Below the pieces are notes generated by a model. The model did no database searches, was not told the origin of the DNA, and saw only the letters and a program-made list of their open reading frames with translations. A DNA stretch of 64,000 nt from Hartmannibacter diazotrophicus (GTDB lineage: Bacteria > Pseudomonadota > Alphaproteobacteria > Rhizobiales > Pleomorphomonadaceae): the NCBI RefSeq assembly GCF_900231165.1, contig NZ_LT960614.1:1238550-1302549 (forward strand), given 5' to 3'. Below are positions 16,851 through 63,059 of this stretch, one piece after another. The stretch's first letter is position 1, and every line of letters starts with the position of its first letter. The translations under genes were made by a program, and so were the position numbers.

Positions 16851-17714
16851 TCAAAGTCCGAAACGCGACCAGTAGAGCCGCTCCTCGGCCGCACCGATCA
16901 ACTCCTCCGCGGAGAAAAGGGACGGAGTTCCGGCCTGTCCCGGAAGGCTGGCGCCGAACTGCCGCCGCAGGAATCCGCGGCTTGCCCCGACGAAGCGGAG
17001 GGTGGTCTTCTCGCCATAGCGCGCCTTGAGATCCTGGCGCATGTCGCCGACGCGGTCGATCAGCCCGAGCGCATGGGCGGCATCCCCGGCCCAGAAAAGT
17101 CCGGAGAACAGGTCCTCGCTTTGCGAAAGAGCCTCGCCGCGCCGCGATTTGACGAGGTTGATGAAGACCTTGTGGATGTCCTTCTGCAGGTTCTTGAGGT
17201 GTTCCACGTCCTCGCCGTTTTCCGGCAGGAACGGGTCGAGCGTCACCTTGCGCGTGCCGGCCGTATAGACCCGGCGGTCGATGCCGAGCTTCTCGATGGC
17301 CTTGTCGAGGCCGAAGCCGGCGGACACGACGCCGATGGAGCCGACGATCGAGCAGGGGTCGGCGATGATCTCGTCGCCCGCACAGGCGATCATGTAGCCG
17401 CCCGATGCCGCAACATCCTCCACATAGACGAGCACCGGCTTCGATTTTTCCTCGGCAAGCTGGCGGATGCGCTGGAAGATGAAGTGGGACTGGACCGGGG
17501 ATCCGCCCGGCGAATTGACGAGGATGGCGACCGCCGGAGCTTTCTTGTCCGCAAAAGCCCGGTCGAGCTGCGCGGTGACGGACGCCAGGGACAGGCCGCG
17601 CCGGAGGACGCCGCCGCTGCCGATGACGCCGCTCATGCGAACCACCGGAATGGCGACACCCTCGCGGCGAAGAAACGAAGGCAGGAAGCGGTTGAGAGAC
17701 TTCGACATGGACAC
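16851..17714 (-). CDS. S49-family serine peptidase (SppA/SohB-like)
   Basis: 287-residue signal-peptide-peptidase-like protease with a Ser-Lys dyad. Ser104 in VAASGGYMIACAGDEI is the predicted nucleophile and Lys156 in YTAGTRKVTLDPF the general base, the arrangement of short S49 enzymes. INSPGG-type LVNSPGGSP at 66-73 forms part of the oxyanion region. It lacks the long N-terminal transmembrane segment of E. coli SppA, so membrane attachment is uncertain. Order MTase/S49/small protein/glyQ/glyS on one strand suggests a conserved cluster. It probably degrades leftover signal peptides or membrane-protein fragments. Confidence 0.92.
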   Translation of the reverse strand: MSMSKSLNRFLPSFLRREGVAIPVVRMSGVIGSGGVLRRGLSLASVTAQLDRAFADKKAPAVAILVNSPGGSPVQSHFIFQRIRQLAEEKSKPVLVYVEDVAASGGYMIACAGDEIIADPCSIVGSIGVVSAGFGLDKAIEKLGIDRRVYTAGTRKVTLDPFLPENGEDVEHLKNLQKDIHKVFINLVKSRRGEALSQSEDLFSGLFWAGDAAHALGLIDRVGDMRQDLKARYGEKTTLRFVGASRGFLRRQFGASLPGQAGTPSLFSAEELIGAAEERLYWSRFGL

Positions 17715-18601: not shown

Positions 18602-18838
18602 TCAGGCGGATCGCTTTTCGGGGCGCAGTTCATCGCCAAGGCCCGCATCTTCCATGAGCCGCCGCGCCGCGTCGACGGCATCGGAATCGACCATCAGCCG
18701 GCGGGGCAGGGCGCCGATCGACCCGTCCATGATGCTGGCCGCCTCATCGGCGACGAAATGGCCGATGCCGGCCTCTTTCAGGAGAGAGGAGGCGAAGGAA
18801 ATCGTGACGGCATTGTTCGTACGGATGAGTTCTTCCAT
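18602..18838 (-). CDS. DUF2007 domain protein
   Basis: 78-residue protein of the DUF2007 (putative signal-transducing, PII-like fold) family: MEELIRTNNAVTISFASSLL, AGIGHFVADEAAS and a C-terminal RLMVDSDAVDAARRLMEDAG. It is the first gene of a minus-strand run with the TrmN6-like methyltransferase (2-base gap). In related bacteria, from memory, this gene sits head-to-head with polyprenyl diphosphate synthase. Here about 3 kb with the exosortase cassette intervenes. Function unknown. Confidence 0.88.
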   Translation of the reverse strand: MEELIRTNNAVTISFASSLLKEAGIGHFVADEAASIMDGSIGALPRRLMVDSDAVDAARRLMEDAGLGDELRPEKRSA

Positions 18839-19462
18839 TCAGCGCTCCTTGCACCCGCAACCGCCCGGATGACGTCTCGGCGGCCGAAACAGGCCTGTTT
18901 CGGTACCCCTCCTTGTTGGCAGGGCTTTCCCGCCGGGCACAGAGGCCGCAGGCGGCCGGCACGGTCACAGGCCGTCAATATCGCATGGGAACATGTAGCG
19001 GCGGAACCGCAAATCACAATGCCGGCATGGTCTTGAGGGAGTTCCCGGTGGGGTCTCCGCTCCGCGGATCGAGGCTCCCCTGTGGGAGTTCCGCCGCAGC
19101 GTGTCGTCCGCCCATGCGGGCAAAAAGGCGCCGGTCCCGTCCATTCATCAGGTGGTGACAGACATCGCCGGCGCCGCCCGGACAAGCCCATGAACGGGCC
19201 ATGGTCCTGGTTAACGGCTGGCGGGAGGAAAAGGCGCAGCACTCGCCGCGAGTGTAAAATTGAAGATTTCGCGGGTTGTACTTCAGAAAAACATGAAAGA
19301 TAGAAATTAAATCAAAGTTTATATATTCACCAAGAAAATTAACCATATCAATTCAGATTTTGAAATTAAGCATTACGTCAAATGAATGTTGAATCGGTTG
19401 GTAAAAATGAATAGTTTGTTCACCGTGGCGCAATAAGAATGCATATAATTAATGAGTCTATC
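18839..19462. other. Long intergenic region with a 20-bp palindrome and an AT-rich end
   Basis: About 620 bases without a supported gene. A perfect 20-base palindrome, CCGAAACAGGCCTGTTTCGG, lies at 18884-18903, 46 bases upstream of DUF2007. From about 19250 to 19460 the composition falls sharply to AT-rich, in contrast with GC-rich sequence on both sides; this may be the promoter of the exosortase cassette or a trace of insertion. Short frames here have no recognisable family. Confidence 0.65.
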
Positions 19463-19867
19463 ATGCTTAGAAATCGCTTTCTGATTCTCGTTTTGGCCGC
19501 GCCGACTCTTGCCTCCTGCGCGGCCCTCGACCCGACCCTGAGAGGGGCCGGCTTCGTTCCCCTGGGCAGTGGCAGCCCCCTTTTCGGCGATACCCCGAAC
19601 TATCTGCCGTACAGTCCGCTCGCGAAGGGGCGGCCGTTCGAGACCGGCTTCAAATTGCCGGGCGGCGATCTTCGCCCGCTGGCCTATTCGCAGGGTCAGG
19701 CCAGGCACACGGTCTACCCCGACCCCTACAGACGGCCGGGTGGAACCTATAAGCCGCCGGGTCCGACCCGCGCTCCGGAAGTCGGTGCCGAAGGCGCTGC
19801 TGCGGCGTTCGCCGTCGTGATCGGCAGCATTCTGGTGATGACGGGCCGCCGCCGTCGCAAGGCGTGA
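19463..19867 (+). CDS. VPEID-CTERM-like exosortase substrate with lipoprotein signal
   Basis: 134-residue secreted protein. The N-terminus is a lipoprotein-type signal: RNR, a hydrophobic core, then the lipobox LASC with Cys19. The middle (about 20-100) is rich in Pro, Gly and Tyr with no recognised domain. The C-terminus is a tripartite sorting tail: APEVGAEG, a hydrophobic helix (AAAAFAVVIGSILVM) and TGRRRRKA. This is the layout of PEP-CTERM-like signals, and Pro-Glu at the expected place plus the neighbouring XrtE-type gene point to the VPEID-CTERM variant. An upstream ATG at 19439 is possible. The two genes are 41 bases apart on one strand. Biological role unknown. Confidence 0.82.
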   Translation: MLRNRFLILVLAAPTLASCAALDPTLRGAGFVPLGSGSPLFGDTPNYLPYSPLAKGRPFETGFKLPGGDLRPLAYSQGQARHTVYPDPYRRPGGTYKPPGPTRAPEVGAEGAAAAFAVVIGSILVMTGRRRRKA

Positions 19868-19908
19868 TCGCCCTGCGATCGAGTGCGTTGGTCTTCCATC
19901 GAGACTGA

Positions 19909-21597
19909 GTGACCGGCATGAGTGTCCGCAATTGGCCGAAATCGACGCTGTGGCGCATGGGCTCCCTGCCGTCGATCCTCTACCTTGAATATCTCACGCT
20001 GTTTGTCGTGCTGAGGATGCTCTACCAGCGTGACGACCTCGACAAACTGCCGGGCTTCTGGGTCGAGCTGCTGAATCTGGGAAGGGATTTTCCCAACAAC
20101 TTTGCGGGCGTCTATTTTGTCGGCGGCGTGATCTGCGCGATGTTTGTCGGCCTCATTTTCTGGGGAGACAGGCTTTGGCGGCAGTTCGCCGCAAGCGGCA
20201 TCGGTCTCAAGACCGTCGATGCGCTCTGGCTCGGCATTCATGCCGCTGCCCTTCTCGTGTCCGTCGCCATCGTCAATGCGGTTCTCGCAACGACGGGGAT
20301 CTCTCCGTCCGCTGCCGCCCTTCTCCTGACGGCCTGTCTTGCCTCGGCCGCCGTGTCGGTATTCGCGCTGGCGAGGGCTTTCCTCGGTCCGGCGTTGTTG
20401 GGTTTTCTTGGCGCCATTTCGCCGATCGTGGCCGGTTCCCTGGCCATCGGCATTTCAATGTCCTTTCTCGCCAGCGTGGTTCAGTCGTTCTGGGAATGGC
20501 TGACGGGGCCGACCCTGCACCTGACGGCTGCGATCCTGCAGTTCTTTGCGGTTGGCATCGACGTCGTGCCCGAAGAGCGGATGATCGTCCTCCGCGAATT
20601 CGCCGTCATCATTGATTCCGGCTGCTCCGGCATCACCGGCATGGCGCTGGTCGGGATTTTCCTCGGCGGCTATCTGTTTCGCTTCCGCGGCGAATACCGC
20701 TTTCCCCGGGCGCTTCTCATCGTTCCGGCGGGAACAGTGATTTCCTTTCTTGCCAATGGCCTTCGCCTCGCTGCGCTCGTTCTCGTCGGCGCCTATGTCG
20801 ATCCTGGCATCGCCAAGGACGGCTTTCATTCGATGGCGGGCTGGCTGTTCTTCTGCACCGTGACCATCGGCCTTATCGCACTCAGCCGGCAACTCGCCTG
20901 GTTCGGCACTGAAGACCGCCGGATGGTCCGCGAGGGCGACAATCCGGCGGCGGCCTATCTCGTGCCGTTCATCGCCTGGCTCACGATCGGGCTCGTCACC
21001 GGTGCGATGACGGTCGGCCTCGATCGTTTCTATGCCATTCGCGTGGTGGCGGTTCTCGGTCTGCTCTGGGCCTTCCGGGGTGAGTATTGGCAAAGCGTGC
21101 TGCCGCGCCTTTCGAGTGGCGCGCGTTCGGGGGCATGGGTCTCCGCCGCGCCCTGGGCGATCGGCCTTGCGGTTTTTGCTCTCTGGCTGGTCCTGGTGGA
21201 CGAGGACAACTCCCGCGCTGCCTCGATGTCGTCGGAAATCCAGCAGTGGTCGTCCCTGGCGGCAGTCGTCTGGATCGCCTTCCGCATCCTTGGAACGTCG
21301 ATCGTCGTTCCCGTGATCGAGGAACTCGCCTTTCGAGGCTTCCTGCAGCGCCGGGTCTTCGGGGCAGACTTCACGTCGGTCGGTTTCGGATGGTTCTCCG
21401 TCCCCTCGATCCTTCTGAGTTCCATCGCCTTCGGCCTGATGCATTCGAACATCGTGGCGGGCATCCTCGCCGGTTGCGCATTCAGCCTTGCCTGCTATGT
21501 GCGCGGCCGACTGACCGACGCCATGATCGCCCACGGCGTCGCCAACGCGCTGCTTTGCGTCTGGGTGCTCGCCTTCGGCCGTTGGGATCTGTGGTGA
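19909..21597 (+). CDS. xrtE: Exosortase E fused to CPBP/CAAX intramembrane protease (XrtE)
   Basis: 562-residue, strongly hydrophobic inner-membrane protein with two catalytic halves. The N-terminal half carries exosortase residues: Cys239 in DSGCSGI, Arg286 in NGLRLAALVLVG and His307 in GFHSMAGW. The C-terminal half is a CPBP (Abi/CAAX-type) protease: Glu471-Glu472 and Arg476 in PVIEELAFRGFLQRR, His512 in FGLMHS, and His542/Asn546 in HGVANA. This fusion is the known exosortase E / VPEID-CTERM architecture. It is expected to recognise and cleave the C-terminal tail of the protein encoded just upstream. Numbering is from the GTG at 19909; an ATG three codons later is an alternative. Confidence 0.93.
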   Translation: MTGMSVRNWPKSTLWRMGSLPSILYLEYLTLFVVLRMLYQRDDLDKLPGFWVELLNLGRDFPNNFAGVYFVGGVICAMFVGLIFWGDRLWRQFAASGIGLKTVDALWLGIHAAALLVSVAIVNAVLATTGISPSAAALLLTACLASAAVSVFALARAFLGPALLGFLGAISPIVAGSLAIGISMSFLASVVQSFWEWLTGPTLHLTAAILQFFAVGIDVVPEERMIVLREFAVIIDSGCSGITGMALVGIFLGGYLFRFRGEYRFPRALLIVPAGTVISFLANGLRLAALVLVGAYVDPGIAKDGFHSMAGWLFFCTVTIGLIALSRQLAWFGTEDRRMVREGDNPAAAYLVPFIAWLTIGLVTGAMTVGLDRFYAIRVVAVLGLLWAFRGEYWQSVLPRLSSGARSGAWVSAAPWAIGLAVFALWLVLVDEDNSRAASMSSEIQQWSSLAAVVWIAFRILGTSIVVPVIEELAFRGFLQRRVFGADFTSVGFGWFSVPSILLSSIAFGLMHSNIVAGILAGCAFSLACYVRGRLTDAMIAHGVANALLCVWVLAFGRWDLW

Positions 21598-21925
21598 ACT
21601 GAACCGCTCACGGCGCGATCAAGGACAAATTACCCCAGCGGTCGCCTATGGAGGCCCCAGCCGGGCCCTTGTCCGCGCGTGGCCGCGTTTTTCGGGCGCT
21701 CTGCGGCATTTGAGGCTTTGTCGTCGGCCGGACGGTATTCGGTCATCATGCCGCGGACGGCTGCTTTTTGCCGGGGAGTTCCAACGCGCCGCGGCCCGCG
21801 ATCTGCGACGCGTCTTGCCGCGCCGTTGACGGAACCCTATTGTTAGCGCATGAGGCGGCAGCGAAAGGCCAGCCGAATCGTCCGAGGGGCAGGGCGGTGC
21901 GGGTTCATGACGAAAATTGGAGACC
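21598..21925. other. Intergenic, promoter region of polyprenyl synthase
   Basis: About 328 bases between the exosortase gene and polyprenyl synthase. A TTGACG near 21831 followed by a TATTGT could be promoter elements, but the spacing is poor. No hairpin terminator was recognised after the exosortase gene. Confidence 0.45.
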
Positions 21926-22945
21926 ATGAGAGTGGGCGTTGTCGCTTCCCTCGAAAAGGAAAAGCCGGATACGGGAATTTCATTGCTGACCTCGCTCGTC
22001 CAGTCGGACATGGAGCGGGTCAACCGGCTGATTCTCGACATGGCGGCCGCCAACGCGGAGATGATCCCCGATGTTGCCCGCCATCTGATTGATTCGGGAG
22101 GCAAGCGGCTGCGCCCGATGCTGACCCTCGCCAGCGCCGCCATGTTCGGCTATCGCGGCGACGGACACGTCAAGCTCGCCGCCTCCGTCGAATTCATGCA
22201 TACGGCGACGTTGCTGCATGACGACGTCGTTGACGAAAGCGAAATGCGGCGCGGCAAGGCGGCGGCACGGATGGTTTGGGGCAACCAGGCCAGCGTCCTC
22301 GTCGGTGACTATCTGCTGGGGCAGGCGTTCCGCAAGATGGTCGAGGTCGGGTCTCTGGAAGCGTTGGCCGTCTTGTCCAACGCTGCCTCGGTGATTGCCG
22401 AGGGCGAGGTCATGCAGCTTGTCGCGGCCAAGAATCTCTCCACCAGCGAAGACGAGTATATCCGCGTGATCGAGGCCAAGACTGCGGCTCTTTTCGCCGC
22501 TGCTTGCGAGGTCGGCCCGATCGTTGCCGGAGCCGACGACAAGACACGCAAGGCGATGGCCGACTACGGCCTTTATCTGGGCCTTGCCTTCCAGCTTGTC
22601 GATGACGCGCTGGACTATGGTGGCTCGTCCGCCTCGCTCGGCAAGCGCACGGGCGATGATTTCCGCGAAGGCAAGATCACCCTGCCGGTCGTGATCGCGC
22701 ACCGGGGCGGTGATGCCCAGCAGCGCGCCTTCTGGGCCCGCACCATCGAGCAGGGAACGATCGTCGAGGGCGATCTGGAGACCGCGACCGAACTGATGCA
22801 TCGCCACGGCGCCATTCCGGCCACGATCGAGCGGGCACGCCATTATGGCGACAAGGCGCTTATGGCTCTGGAAGACATGCCGCACGGCGACCATCGGCGC
22901 TCTCTGCTGGATGTCGTCGAGTTCTGCATCAGCCGCGTTCACTGA
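21926..22945 (+). CDS. Polyprenyl diphosphate synthase (octa/decaprenyl type)
   Basis: Builds the long isoprenoid side chain of ubiquinone by repeated addition of isopentenyl diphosphate. 339 residues. The two Asp-rich motifs are DDVVD at 99-103 and DDALD at 226-230, binding Mg-diphosphate. GGKRLRPMLTL upstream is the other family signature. The ATG at 21926 follows GGAGA; the frame extends to a TTG nine bases upstream, which is less likely. Product length (C40 versus C50) is not decided by the visible sequence. ispE and dxs in the same window feed this pathway. Confidence 0.95.
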   Translation: MRVGVVASLEKEKPDTGISLLTSLVQSDMERVNRLILDMAAANAEMIPDVARHLIDSGGKRLRPMLTLASAAMFGYRGDGHVKLAASVEFMHTATLLHDDVVDESEMRRGKAAARMVWGNQASVLVGDYLLGQAFRKMVEVGSLEALAVLSNAASVIAEGEVMQLVAAKNLSTSEDEYIRVIEAKTAALFAAACEVGPIVAGADDKTRKAMADYGLYLGLAFQLVDDALDYGGSSASLGKRTGDDFREGKITLPVVIAHRGGDAQQRAFWARTIEQGTIVEGDLETATELMHRHGAIPATIERARHYGDKALMALEDMPHGDHRRSLLDVVEFCISRVH

Positions 22946-23010: not shown

Positions 23011-23916
23011 TCAGGTCAAGGCTGCCGCCGCAACCCACCAGTGCGGGAAAAGCCGTCGCAAGTCGCCGGCTGCCGCTTCGGCCCTCCCGGCCGTCTCGAA
23101 CAGCCCGAAGCAGGTCGCGCCCGAGCCGGACATGCGCGCAAGGGCGCAGTCCGGAAAGCCGCGCAGGGCGCCGAGAACCTCTGCGATCGCCGGAGCAAGG
23201 GCGATGGCCGGCCCTTCCAGATCGTTTCTCATCAGGCAAAGCATGTCGATCATCTGCGCGTAGCTGTCCCAGCCGTCCGAAGCTTCGATCGGAGGATTGG
23301 ACTTTTCCGAAAGGCGCCGGAAGATCGCCGGCGTCGCGACCGGAACCACCGGATTGACCAGCAGGATGCCGGCGTCCGGCAGGTGTGCGAGCGGGACGAG
23401 ATCGTCGCCGATGCCGCGTGCCCGGAGCGGGCGCATGGCAAGGCACATCGGAACGTCCGCACCGAGCTTCAGCGCCTTGGCCCGCAATCCGTCATCCGGT
23501 TCGATCCCGAGATGATCGCAGACGAGCCGGATGGCCGCGGCCGCATCGGCCGAGCCGCCGCCGATGCCCGAGGCGACCGGCAGCGATTTTTCCAGCCTGA
23601 GATGAAGACCGGCCCCTTCGGGATCGAGGCCCGCATGTTCGAGTGTGAGGGCCGCGGCCCGCAGGACCAGATTGTCCTTCGGGTCGAGATCGGCAAGCTG
23701 ACTGGCGAACGGTCCTGCGACGGACATGGCCAGCCCGGCGCCCTCCATGAGCGAGAGGCGGTCGCCGATCGCCGGAAAGGCGACGATCGAATCGAGCAGG
23801 TGATAGCCGTCGGCACGCTGCCCGACCACATGTAGCGCCAGATTGACTTTCGCCCGCGCGAATTCCGAGCGCGGCGCCGGAGCTCCCGGCGCCGGCCCGG
23901 CCTTGAGAGAGGTCAC
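23011..23916 (-). CDS. ispE: 4-diphosphocytidyl-2-C-methyl-D-erythritol kinase
   Basis: GHMP-fold kinase of the non-mevalonate isoprenoid pathway, phosphorylating CDP-ME. 301 residues from a GTG at 23916. Lys23 in ARAKVNLALHV and Asp124 in the ATP loop PVASGIGGGSADA (113-125) match the catalytic Lys and Asp of E. coli IspE. MSGSGATCFGLF is the third GHMP motif. The GTG is preferred because it has GGAGA upstream and begins 19 bases after the TPR gene stop; the frame continues upstream inside that gene, which cannot be coding. Cotranscribed with the TPR gene. Confidence 0.94.
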   Translation of the reverse strand: MTSLKAGPAPGAPAPRSEFARAKVNLALHVVGQRADGYHLLDSIVAFPAIGDRLSLMEGAGLAMSVAGPFASQLADLDPKDNLVLRAAALTLEHAGLDPEGAGLHLRLEKSLPVASGIGGGSADAAAAIRLVCDHLGIEPDDGLRAKALKLGADVPMCLAMRPLRARGIGDDLVPLAHLPDAGILLVNPVVPVATPAIFRRLSEKSNPPIEASDGWDSYAQMIDMLCLMRNDLEGPAIALAPAIAEVLGALRGFPDCALARMSGSGATCFGLFETAGRAEAAAGDLRRLFPHWWVAAAALT

Positions 23917-60981: not shown

Positions 60982-61475
60982 ATCCGAGATAGCAGGTGAA
61001 ATAGGGCGCGCAATGGTCCGCGCTGGCGTCTATCGCGTCAGATCATGCCTGATTTGTGGCCAAAGGGGAATTCCGGCAATCCGTCGCCGGCCCGGCACCA
61101 GAGCAGGCAATGCGCAAACGGGACCGTCCCCCGAGCGAAAGCCGTCGCTGACCGGTGCGGATTGTTGCGGACAGCCTGATCGGATTGGCCGGACGGGCTG
61201 GTCAACCCGGCTCCAGGCGCGGAAAATCAAGGTGATTCTGAACTAGGTCCGGGAGCGACGGGAACCGAAAATCCGTCCGGATGTGCATCGAGGCCATCAT
61301 CAGGCCCCGCTTTTGCTCGTTTTGGGTGATGGTGTTGTCCGCAAGCGACTGTCGCGGCCGAATGGCCAGCGCTGCGGCGGTTCGCGAGAGAAGCACGAGG
61401 GTGAATTTCGACCAGTAGAGGGGCGTCATTTTTTGCTCATGAGAGATGAGTTTCAGTAGATGCGGAGATCGGCGG
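60982..61475. other. Divergent intergenic region between MFS and GT-C-like genes
   Basis: About 494 bases. A 75-codon frame on the minus strand (61202-61429) was considered but has no ribosome-binding site or family. Promoters for both flanking genes are expected; none is clear. Confidence 0.5.
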
Positions 61476-63059
61476 ATGAGCAGAAAATTCGAAAATTTCT
61501 ACGTCAACGTAGCGATGGGGACGTTGTTCGCCTGTCTGGTGATCGCGATATCCATCGATCCGAAGGTTCATGGCTACGATGACGGAATTATTCTCACCGG
61601 CGCCGATCGGGTCTTGCGCGGCGAGGTTCCCTATCGCGATTTCTGGAGCATGTACGGGCCTGCAACCTATTATTTCAATGCAGCCGTGCTGGAACTGTTC
61701 GACAACAGCGCCATTGCCGTCAAGATAACGGCACTTCTCTTCAAGGTGCTGATCGTTGTCTTCGGGTTTGTCATCATCTCGAAGGCAAACGGACCCAAAT
61801 GGGCGTTTCTCGGGGCGGTTTGCCTTTTGGGTCTGCTGATCAAGCTCGGCTTCGATCTTTTTACCGTGTATCACGCGACGGCACTCATCCTCGTCGCCTT
61901 CATGATGATCTCAAGCGCCGAGCCGACGCGCATCCGCATGCTGGGGGCAGGACTCCTGACCGGCTTTGCGGCGCTCTTTCGCCATGACATGGGGTTCTAC
62001 GCCTGCCTCACGGCTGCCCTTGCATTGATGGTTTTCGCCTTTGGCGAAGGCACCGGCCTTCGCGCCAGATTGGGCAAGGCAGCGCTGCAGATCGCCATTT
62101 TCGCGGCCGGCGTCGGGCTCGTCTTCTTTCCGGCCCTGATTGTCCTCCTGAAGGCGGCCGGCGTGCAGGACGTTGTCTTCAACCTCATTACGGCGCCGAG
62201 CGCCATCTATCCCGCGGCGCGCGGCCTTCCATGGCCGTTCCCCTGGGATTCGGCCGTCTATATTCCGCTGCTGGGGATCCCGATCCTGGCGGCGATCGGC
62301 CTCGGACTGGCCCAGCATTCCGAAACGTCGGAACAAAGCTTTGCCGACCGAATGCTGATCACCTTGTCCCTTGCCGCCGTTGTCTTCATGGCCAAGGGAG
62401 CCGTGCGCGTCGAGAGCCTGCACATGGCGCCGGCTCTCGTCTTCGCCTTCCTGGCGCTCTTCACCTATCGCGGTGCCTACTGGCGCGAGAATCGCCGTGC
62501 TCTCGTCATGACGGTTCTGGTCATCGGCGGCATTTCCTATTCCGCCCTTTATGCCGCGACGGGTTTTCGCAACTCCGCCAGCAATGTCATGAAGATCGCC
62601 CGGGCGGAGCATCCTTTCCAGGCGCTGGATTGCCTGACCAGGATCGGCGAGGATCGTGTCGCGTGCCTGGAAATTCCGGCGCGCTACCAGCAGGCGGTGG
62701 CGTTCATCAAGGAAAACACGACCCAGGATGACCTGATCTACGTGGGGCCGAAGCACCACGACAAGGTCTTCGCCAACTATCTCGCGTTCTATTTCTTTGC
62801 CGACCGCAGGTCGCCGACGAAATGGGAGGAGACTCACCCCGGAATCCAGACGTCGCCGGAAGTCCAGATGGCGATGATCATCGATTTCACGGCGCGTCCC
62901 CCCAAATACATCCTGCTCGATGCCGCCTGGGGAGACATTCACGAACCGAACCAGTCATCCAGGAGCTCGGGGGTGTTCGCGCTCGATAACTTCATTCGCG
63001 ACCACTACCGCAAGGTCACAAGCTACGGCAGCCTGGACGTCTGGGCCGAGAACAGCTGA
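61476..63059 (+). CDS. GT-C-like multi-pass membrane glycosyltransferase or related protein
   Basis: 527 residues from the ATG at 61476 (CGGAGATCGGCGG upstream). About ten hydrophobic helices. After the first helix comes DDGIILTGADRVLRGEVPYR then DFWSMYGPATYYFNA, the acidic and YGP loop typical of GT-C enzymes using polyprenyl-phosphate sugars. The C-terminal 150 residues are soluble with two Cys (CLTRIGEDRVACLE). Substrate and product unknown. It splits dxs from the tlyA operon and is on the opposite strand to both. Confidence 0.75.
   Translation: MSRKFENFYVNVAMGTLFACLVIAISIDPKVHGYDDGIILTGADRVLRGEVPYRDFWSMYGPATYYFNAAVLELFDNSAIAVKITALLFKVLIVVFGFVIISKANGPKWAFLGAVCLLGLLIKLGFDLFTVYHATALILVAFMMISSAEPTRIRMLGAGLLTGFAALFRHDMGFYACLTAALALMVFAFGEGTGLRARLGKAALQIAIFAAGVGLVFFPALIVLLKAAGVQDVVFNLITAPSAIYPAARGLPWPFPWDSAVYIPLLGIPILAAIGLGLAQHSETSEQSFADRMLITLSLAAVVFMAKGAVRVESLHMAPALVFAFLALFTYRGAYWRENRRALVMTVLVIGGISYSALYAATGFRNSASNVMKIARAEHPFQALDCLTRIGEDRVACLEIPARYQQAVAFIKENTTQDDLIYVGPKHHDKVFANYLAFYFFADRRSPTKWEETHPGIQTSPEVQMAMIIDFTARPPKYILLDAAWGDIHEPNQSSRSSGVFALDNFIRDHYRKVTSYGSLDVWAENS

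Follow-up and report, generated by a model that had tools for sequence, protein, structure and literature searches.

A two-gene exosortase E system with a probable lipoprotein partner in Hartmannibacter diazotrophicus

To our knowledge, neither the chemistry of exosortases nor the part played by the CAAX-type proteases found with them has been settled. Exosortase E (XrtE) reduces the problem to a minimum: one enzyme, one tiny substrate and two genes. Here we analyze such a gene pair in a 64,000-nucleotide stretch of Hartmannibacter diazotrophicus DNA (assembly GCF_900231165.1, contig NZ_LT960614.1, positions 1,238,550 to 1,302,549 of the forward strand), referred to below as the window. The closest described system is exosortase E/VPEID-CTERM (models TIGR04162 and TIGR04161), with which the pair has in common the enzyme family, the fusion of two enzyme domains and an adjacent partner bearing a sorting tail. 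It departs from that system in its partner, which is a probable lipoprotein with an APEVG tail and a longer body, and in its enzyme, which falls in a Salipiger-Alloyangia clade off the two main alphaproteobacterial clades. Comparison of the sequences confirmed the locus as an exosortase E system that is known in kind and unusual as a variant. A preliminary description of this DNA had seen in the pair a candidate for a new process; that novelty fell away, as four EpsH-CAAX protease fusions were reported by Haft and co-workers in 2006 (PMC1569441) and curated models exist for both partners. Our literature search found no paper about the exosortase E/VPEID-CTERM system, although two papers each contain one mention of exosortase E; an earlier description of its short partners is possible.

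Other sorting systems resemble the pair in part. PEP-CTERM/exosortase A (EpsH) has a similar tripartite tail and a Cys-Arg-His exosortase; its tail-bearing proteins are reported to number between 1 and 65 in a genome (median 8; PMC1569441), whereas 24 genomes with XrtE hold 1-8 tails each, on tiny substrates. MrtJ/JDVT-CTERM, as outlined in PMC11980579, is likewise sporadic and made up of two genes, one for a CPBP enzyme and one for a single target with a tail, but it is without an exosortase half and has another tail signature. The myxosortase MrtX is a CPBP protease that acts on a tripartite tail, MYXO-CTERM, and shares the predicted orientation of the XrtE protease half, but the tag contains an invariant Cys, the targets number in the dozens by the account in PMC11980579, and the exosortase half is again missing. 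Related sorting systems include cyanoexosortase B (PMC12188702), rhombosortase (PMC3237569) and XrtF (PMC10936215).

An enzyme and its adjacent tail-bearing partner

The two genes in the window almost certainly encode an enzyme and its substrate. XrtE scores 189.9 bits with TIGR04162 (exosortase E/protease; cut-off 150), 126.3 with TIGR03008 (CAAX-protease-related; cut-off 81.05), 55.9 with PF09721 (cut-off 25.7) and 53.9 with PF02517 (cut-off 22.4). The exosortase and CPBP halves are carried on one chain with both catalytic sets complete, the CPBP motifs being EExxxR (E471-R476), FxxxH (F508-H512) and HxxxN (H542-N546). The catalytic residues named in the preliminary description proved right. 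Across 94 aligned fusions, including that of the window, C239, R286, H307, E471, E472, H542 and N546 are identical throughout, and H512 is kept in 93, with Tyr in locus L108. H307 and the Glu pair were partly selected for, because fusions were found through P-x-x-E-E or F-H-S patterns, either of which sufficed; C239, R286, H512 and H542 are free of this selection. Because the catalytic residues are nearly invariant at a mean column identity of 40% (15 sequences) or 31% (66 sequences), both sites appear to be needed, and neither half of XrtE looks vestigial.

An AlphaFold2 model of the whole of XrtE reached a predicted local distance difference test (pLDDT) of 89.1 and a predicted template modeling score of 0.85, and the CPBP half modeled alone a pLDDT of 93.8. 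Among solved structures the CPBP half ranked 4cad (Rce1) first (Z 6.4, root-mean-square deviation 5.6, 167 residues aligned) and 6u0o (SagB-SpdC) second (Z 6.0, deviation 5.9, 185 aligned); both are CPBP-type proteins, and the next row is unrelated, at Z 4.8. 4cad was also the best Foldseek match, a weak one (E 0.51). The whole model had no Foldseek match at E 0.001, its best VIA Z of 5.9 was to unrelated helical proteins, and a sequence-profile search for a solved relative of XrtE returned only two designed proteins (E 0.15-0.16).

The observation behind the preliminary description was confirmed, and its interpretation as a whole is partly supported. The positions of the reading frames, the 41-base gap between the end of the precursor reading frame (19867) and xrtE and the 562-residue length of XrtE were as it had given them, and the partner is indeed a short exported protein whose tail runs from a PE motif (APEVG) through a hydrophobic stretch to a basic end (RRRRKA). 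It had missed the lipoprotein-type signal. The N-terminus (MLRNRFLILVLAAPTLASC) fits the lipoprotein pattern PS51257, with a lipobox LASC whose Cys19 lies at a suitable distance from the basic N-terminus, and we regard the partner as a probable lipoprotein on this pattern. The same pattern was found in 5 of 83 XrtE-adjacent precursors, the window's included and some of the others doubtful, and lipoprotein nature was rejected as a family trait.

Assignment to the curated models came out differently for the two proteins: XrtE passes TIGR04162, as the preliminary description had expected, but its substrate fails VPEID-CTERM (TIGR04161), the tail alone scoring 13.8 bits against a cut-off of 33 and the whole protein not matching. 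TIGR04161 had no match over its cut-off anywhere in the genome, and the partner gave no Pfam match and no NCBIfam match above cut-off. Of the V-P-E-I-D signature, as read from the model name, the tail keeps P and E only. The MYXO-CTERM model (TIGR03901, cut-off 20) scored 18.3 bits on the tail and 15.5 on the whole partner, which has no Cys near the helix. A profile built from 83 tails scored the window tail at 39.1 bits (E 4.4e-9), this tail being part of the profile; VPEID-CTERM itself matches 51 of the 83 at E 0.1.

Closer relatives were found through the enzyme. The best plasmid match to the window XrtE is from Salipiger (39.9% identity), where an 86-residue open reading frame (ORF), absent from the record's gene table, ends 29 bases upstream of xrtE; its body is unlike that of the window partner, and its tail (VPEIGGQGAAAALALVFGALVLMTSYRRREV) shows 47-53% identity with the window tail, depending on the alignment. 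In Alloyangia pacifica a tail lying just upstream of xrtE (VPEIHAEGAAAGLLFVLGGIAVMTGTRRRRS) is 53% identical to it. In a quick tree without bootstrap, the three enzymes form one clade with an SH-like approximate likelihood ratio support of 100, which groups with XrtE of Myxococcota and Planctomycetota (the next two forks have 89 and 93), and a branch with support 98 divides this part of the tree from the two main clades of alphaproteobacterial XrtE. Judged by sequence, the small protein in the window is the cognate partner of XrtE although the VPEID-CTERM model misses it.

We assembled 93 other fusions: 79 of 80 loci from a contig search (L111, with a CPBP part only, was left out), 8 from genomes and 6 from plasmids. 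The contig search was alignment-based, a single-sequence search having given none, and its loci are the best 80 of 166 and not a census. By their titles the 93 belong to Pseudomonadota, Acidobacteriota, Planctomycetota, Myxococcota and Thermodesulfobacteriota, and all 10 that were tested passed TIGR04162. With a simple filter for PE or PD, a hydrophobic stretch and a basic end, 70 of the 93 loci proved to have a tail ORF no more than 1.5 kb from xrtE, and 69 had one within 500 bp, a frequency that supports the pairing of enzyme and substrate. By distance, 73 tail ORFs lay within 500 bp, 9 more out to 1.5 kb, 8 to 3 kb, 7 to 6 kb and 5 farther away. In L042, counted among the 70, the match was a false one to a permease; the real partner is next to it and took its place in later analyses.

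The pair also appears dedicated, as had been proposed. In the window's genome, the 83-tail profile found the adjacent protein and no other tail-bearing protein (next match 14.3 bits, E 0.26), and it had no match at E 0.01 in 19 genomes of the family that have no XrtE. In 24 genomes with XrtE it found between one and eight tails each, exactly one in 13; that every one of the 24 has at least one is partly circular, because the profile holds tails from these genomes, but the small number is not.

Some loci have features of their own. L107 (7588-9096) has a betaproteobacterial XrtE on a long branch, close to which two tail ORFs of 235 and 236 residues are encoded on the opposite strand, with tails PELNGSALPMGSF and PEINGSALPMGSF, unlike the small partners at other loci. 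A metagenome bin titled Klebsiella pneumoniae (L101) has an XrtE that is sister, with support 100, to that of an alphaproteobacterial bin (L119), and the title is probably a mislabel. At three loci from another family of the order (L004, L006, L007) an ORF that by eye resembles an outer-membrane barrel adjoins xrtE.

Precursors with little cargo

Most precursors are far smaller than the one in the window. We examined 80 adjacent precursors, the window's included and those of L042 and L107 left out, of which 69 have a recognizable signal peptide. Their median length is 65 residues (quartiles 57 and 79; the longest possible ORFs have a median of 73.5), and in 27 of the 69 there are at most 30 residues ahead of the tail motif, the length of a signal peptide at most. 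The 86-residue body ahead of the motif in the window partner is the second longest of the 69. Counted from the residue before P, the tail is 28-31 residues long in 59 of the 69. With small residues at set distances, the tail resembles a ruler, and both this spacing and the fixed length agree with the best explanation given below. In 81 PE-anchored tails, PE having been part of the tail filter, Ala or Gly occupies position 7 after P in 70 tails and position 10 in 77, Gly, Ala or Ser occupies position 16 in 76, and Arg or Lys occupies position 24 in 69.

For the sequence between signal peptide and tail, we took 82 cores from 92 candidates, of which 12 are not adjacent to xrtE (those left out were 10 without a clear signal peptide), with cut sites set by a simple rule and related rows counted separately. 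Cys is absent from 62 cores, occurs once in 5 and twice in 15, and never more than twice. Two Cys with 3-8 residues between them were found in 13 of the 82, whereas 2000 shuffles gave 1.33 on average and never more than 6. We found no earlier description of this family-wide near-absence of cargo or of the close Cys pairs where they are present. At four loci from the window's order or near Hyphomicrobium (L193, L194, L195 and L005), a short hydrophobic stretch lies between the two Cys, as in FCFGPFC, followed by a Gly-rich spacer and the PE tail.

These dimensions bring in a different reading of the system, in which XrtE matures secreted peptides of very small size, brought to it by the tail, and the product is the core, a few to some tens of residues long and either free or attached. 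Besides the short precursors and the Cys pairs, it draws on one Marinicaulis genome that holds two arrays of four precursors on different contigs (L089:8397-9177 and L185:793-1586). Three of the cores have a recognizable counterpart in the other array, identical at 5 of 5, 5 of 6 and 16 of 25 residues, and the fourth has none. In 36 codons these three core pairs show 10 changing and 5 synonymous differences, which gives no clear sign of purifying selection, while the tails of the same pairs show 4 changing and 36 synonymous in 90; the fourth pair was not counted since its cores differ in length. Neither diversifying nor purifying selection on the Marinicaulis cores is clearly supported by these counts. 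The many cores without Cys also speak against a peptide product, as do two Hydrogenophaga loci (L073 and L081) with near-identical tails and wholly different cores, and the window partner itself, in which the body is long and the sole Cys is that of the lipobox. We regard this reading as doubtful. A broader version, in which exosortase E would sort no proteins in the ordinary sense and would instead be a transferable dual-site maturation machine for minimal peptides, captured here by a lipoprotein, seems to us no less speculative. If it held, the close Cys pair in a minority of cores could form a loop, and the window peptide would be fixed at both ends, by an N-terminal lipid and by a C-terminal group added by the exosortase. 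If short peptides are the product, they would constitute a new class of surface or secreted peptide in Acidobacteriota, Planctomycetota, Myxococcota and Pseudomonadota.

Proposed processing by the two enzyme halves

The charge pattern of XrtE suggests an orientation for both active sites. With helix limits taken from the AlphaFold2 model, the family alignment has few Lys and Arg per 10 residues in the Cys239 loop (0.54) and in loops 294-301 (0.37), 366-376 (0.07) and 428-450 (0.34), and many in stretches 257-268 (2.45), 326-348 (the linker; 1.25), 387-410 (1.90) and 530-537 (3.06) and just after the Glu pair (1.62); loop 150-162 (0.30) is at odds with this topology. From the alternation, we predict a periplasmic exosortase triad, with the Glu pair, His542 and Asn546 close to the cytoplasmic end. 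Action of the CPBP half on the remaining tail, one of two roles that the preliminary description had offered for it, fits this predicted place of the Glu pair.

Our best explanation combines a transferable gene pair, processing in two steps and a tethering product, and we put the chance that it holds as a whole at about even. In this explanation, Sec would export the precursor, whose N-terminus would be lipidated and cut by signal peptidase II; most relatives would have an ordinary signal peptidase I site instead. The tail helix would span the membrane, PE lying on the outside and RRRRKA on the inside. Next, the exosortase half would cut at or next to PE on the periplasmic face and transfer the short chain to an acceptor in the envelope, perhaps a lipid or a glycan, and the CPBP half, its Glu pair at the cytoplasmic helix end, would cut the leftover tail so that it leaves the enzyme. 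In the window's genome the product, with an N-terminal lipid and a C-terminal acceptor, would serve as a short tether linking the membrane to a surface polymer, a role supported by the report that PEP-CTERM proteins stabilize contact between polymer and surface in other bacteria (PMC12188702). Of the individual steps, we consider the cut at PE by the exosortase half probable, whereas disposal of the tail by the CPBP half is a tentative assignment that falls somewhat short of an even chance. With the predicted catalytic residues and a substrate of 134 residues, mass spectrometry in a laboratory host could reveal both cleavage sites and any group that is attached.

Several observations weigh against this explanation. 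Our literature search found no experiment on XrtE. In 23 of the 93 loci the filter found no tail ORF nearby. The lipobox is rare among relatives and therefore lies outside the core mechanism. MrtX and MrtJ have, by eye, the charge pattern that predicts the same CPBP orientation as in XrtE (3 of 4 MrtX loci, L143, L144 and L145, with L142 left out; 11 of 12 MrtJ loci, with L158 left out). Tail variation follows the CPBP half, given the exosortase half, with a partial rank correlation of 0.379, and the exosortase half, given the CPBP half, with 0.160; none of 400 shuffles was as high for either (69 of 71 loci; L054 and L109 lack the full PE context). MrtX has been proposed to cut distal to a cysteine that precedes the helix (PMC11980579), and by analogy the CPBP half of XrtE could make the sorting cut itself.

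In that alternative, the CPBP half would cut as a myxosortase does and the exosortase half would only transfer or modify the new end, the two working one after the other at the same, outer end of the tail. It can call on the action of MrtX and MrtJ on tripartite tails in the shared orientation (PMC11980579), and on the correlation, which in a sliding comparison peaks at XrtE residues 326-400 with partial values of 0.20-0.21 (68 loci, L107 also left out). However, the window tail has no invariant Cys of the MYXO-CTERM kind, the exosortase Cys-Arg-His triad is invariant where a mere helper might not need it, and the correlation may reflect no more than the better conservation of the CPBP half. 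We consider this alternative unlikely. Because of that better conservation, we did not use covariation as evidence for docking. Topology as proof of cutting at two ends was likewise rejected: it does not decide the role of the CPBP half, because myxosortase-type enzymes have the same orientation.

The preliminary description had also raised action of the protease half on the exosortase. Such self-processing, which would leave the substrate untouched, is a formal possibility for which we found no support. Linker 326-348 has no invariant residue in 15 aligned XrtE, and in 79 of 80 loci from the contig search a single ORF carries the two halves; both points are weak, and the search patterns and the filter favor loci of the latter kind. 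We hold self-processing to be extremely unlikely.

Among the 23 loci with no nearby tail ORF, some are cut by contig ends (L051, L077, L112), and one (L044) has an annotated VPEID-CTERM gene 1.7 kb from xrtE. Others, L052, L064, L078 and L120 among them, have room beside xrtE and no tail-like ORF even by a looser filter. Six loci (L046, L052, L053, L064, L078, L120) have a flank of over 9 kb on one or both sides of xrtE and no PE-tail ORF within 1.5 kb, L046 giving one unconvincing match with the looser filter. Substrates of these six may lie elsewhere or have another motif.

Insertion and genomic surroundings

Comparison with the rest of the family suggests that the pair arrived as a unit. 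The polyprenyl synthetase gene that follows it is present in 18 of 19 other family genomes at E 1e-40 (G016 has no match), and in all 18 the start of the DUF2007 gene lies 203-320 bp from residue 18 of the synthetase, as against 3130 bp in the window; a methyltransferase gene sits behind the DUF2007 gene in each. The extra DNA, about 2.9 kb, consists of the two genes and an AT-rich stretch. XrtE over the cut-off was found in 1 of 20 family genomes, in 6 of 397 genomes from the order and in 4 of 385 from the class, each count including the window's genome. Because the site is empty in 18 of 18 relatives and xrtE is rare in family and order, we treat the pair as a two-gene unit, whose genes seem to move together. 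Our best explanation takes it to be a self-contained exosortase E cassette, acquired horizontally.

A cassette of this kind might be no more than a degenerate passenger that serves no function in the window's genome. Sporadic acquisition and a diverged tail would agree with that, as would the lack of a body homolog: no convincing one was found in the 19 other family genomes (best other E 0.028), and a search of the plasmid collection gave one match, at E 9. Yet neither ORF is disrupted, the seven catalytic residues are all present, and the tail retains the features of its family, and we judge a functionless passenger very unlikely.

Coordinates are collected in the table. The precursor would have 142 residues if the upstream ATG at 19439 is its start, and an alternative ATG of xrtE at 19918 gives 559 residues. 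Promoter and terminator scans gave no signal above shuffles, and a repeat search found only short, partly matching pairs. Elsewhere in the window, positions 61446-63059 (+ strand) hold an ORF of 537 residues without a Pfam match at E 0.001. GC content in the 500-base segments that begin at 19000 and 19250 is 0.494 and 0.500. At third codon positions the pair has a GC content of 0.73 and 0.78, compared with 0.84, 0.82, 0.79 and 0.84 in the genes at 16851, 17790, 21917 and 23936; the comparison was made without the ORF at 23041 (0.75), which overlaps a longer reading frame on the opposite strand.

Table. Features of the exosortase E locus, in window coordinates
Feature	Position	Strand	Details
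Substrate precursor gene	19463..19867	+	134 residues; signal peptide, 86-residue Pro/Gly/Tyr-rich body, sorting tail
Lipoprotein-type signal peptide	19463..19519	+	Lipobox L-A-S-C; Cys19 codon 19517-19519
C-terminal sorting tail	19772..19864	+	APEVGAEGAAAAFAVVIGSILVMTGRRRRKA; PE motif, helix, basic end
xrtE, exosortase E/CPBP protease fusion	19909..21597	+	562 residues, GTG start
Exosortase half	20113..20883	+	PF09721 match, residues 69-325
Exosortase catalytic codons	20623-20625; 20764-20766; 20827-20829	+	Cys239; Arg286; His307
CPBP (Rce1-like) protease half	21271..21552	+	PF02517 match, residues 455-548
CPBP codons	21319-21324; 21442-21444; 21532-21534; 21544-21546	+	Glu471/472; His512; His542; Asn546
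Segment with the pair as sole genes	18839..21916		Between DUF2007 gene and polyprenyl synthetase gene
DUF2007 gene	18602-18838	-	Pfam name
Polyprenyl synthetase gene	21917-22945	+	Pfam name
AT-rich stretch	about 19250-19460		Upstream of the pair

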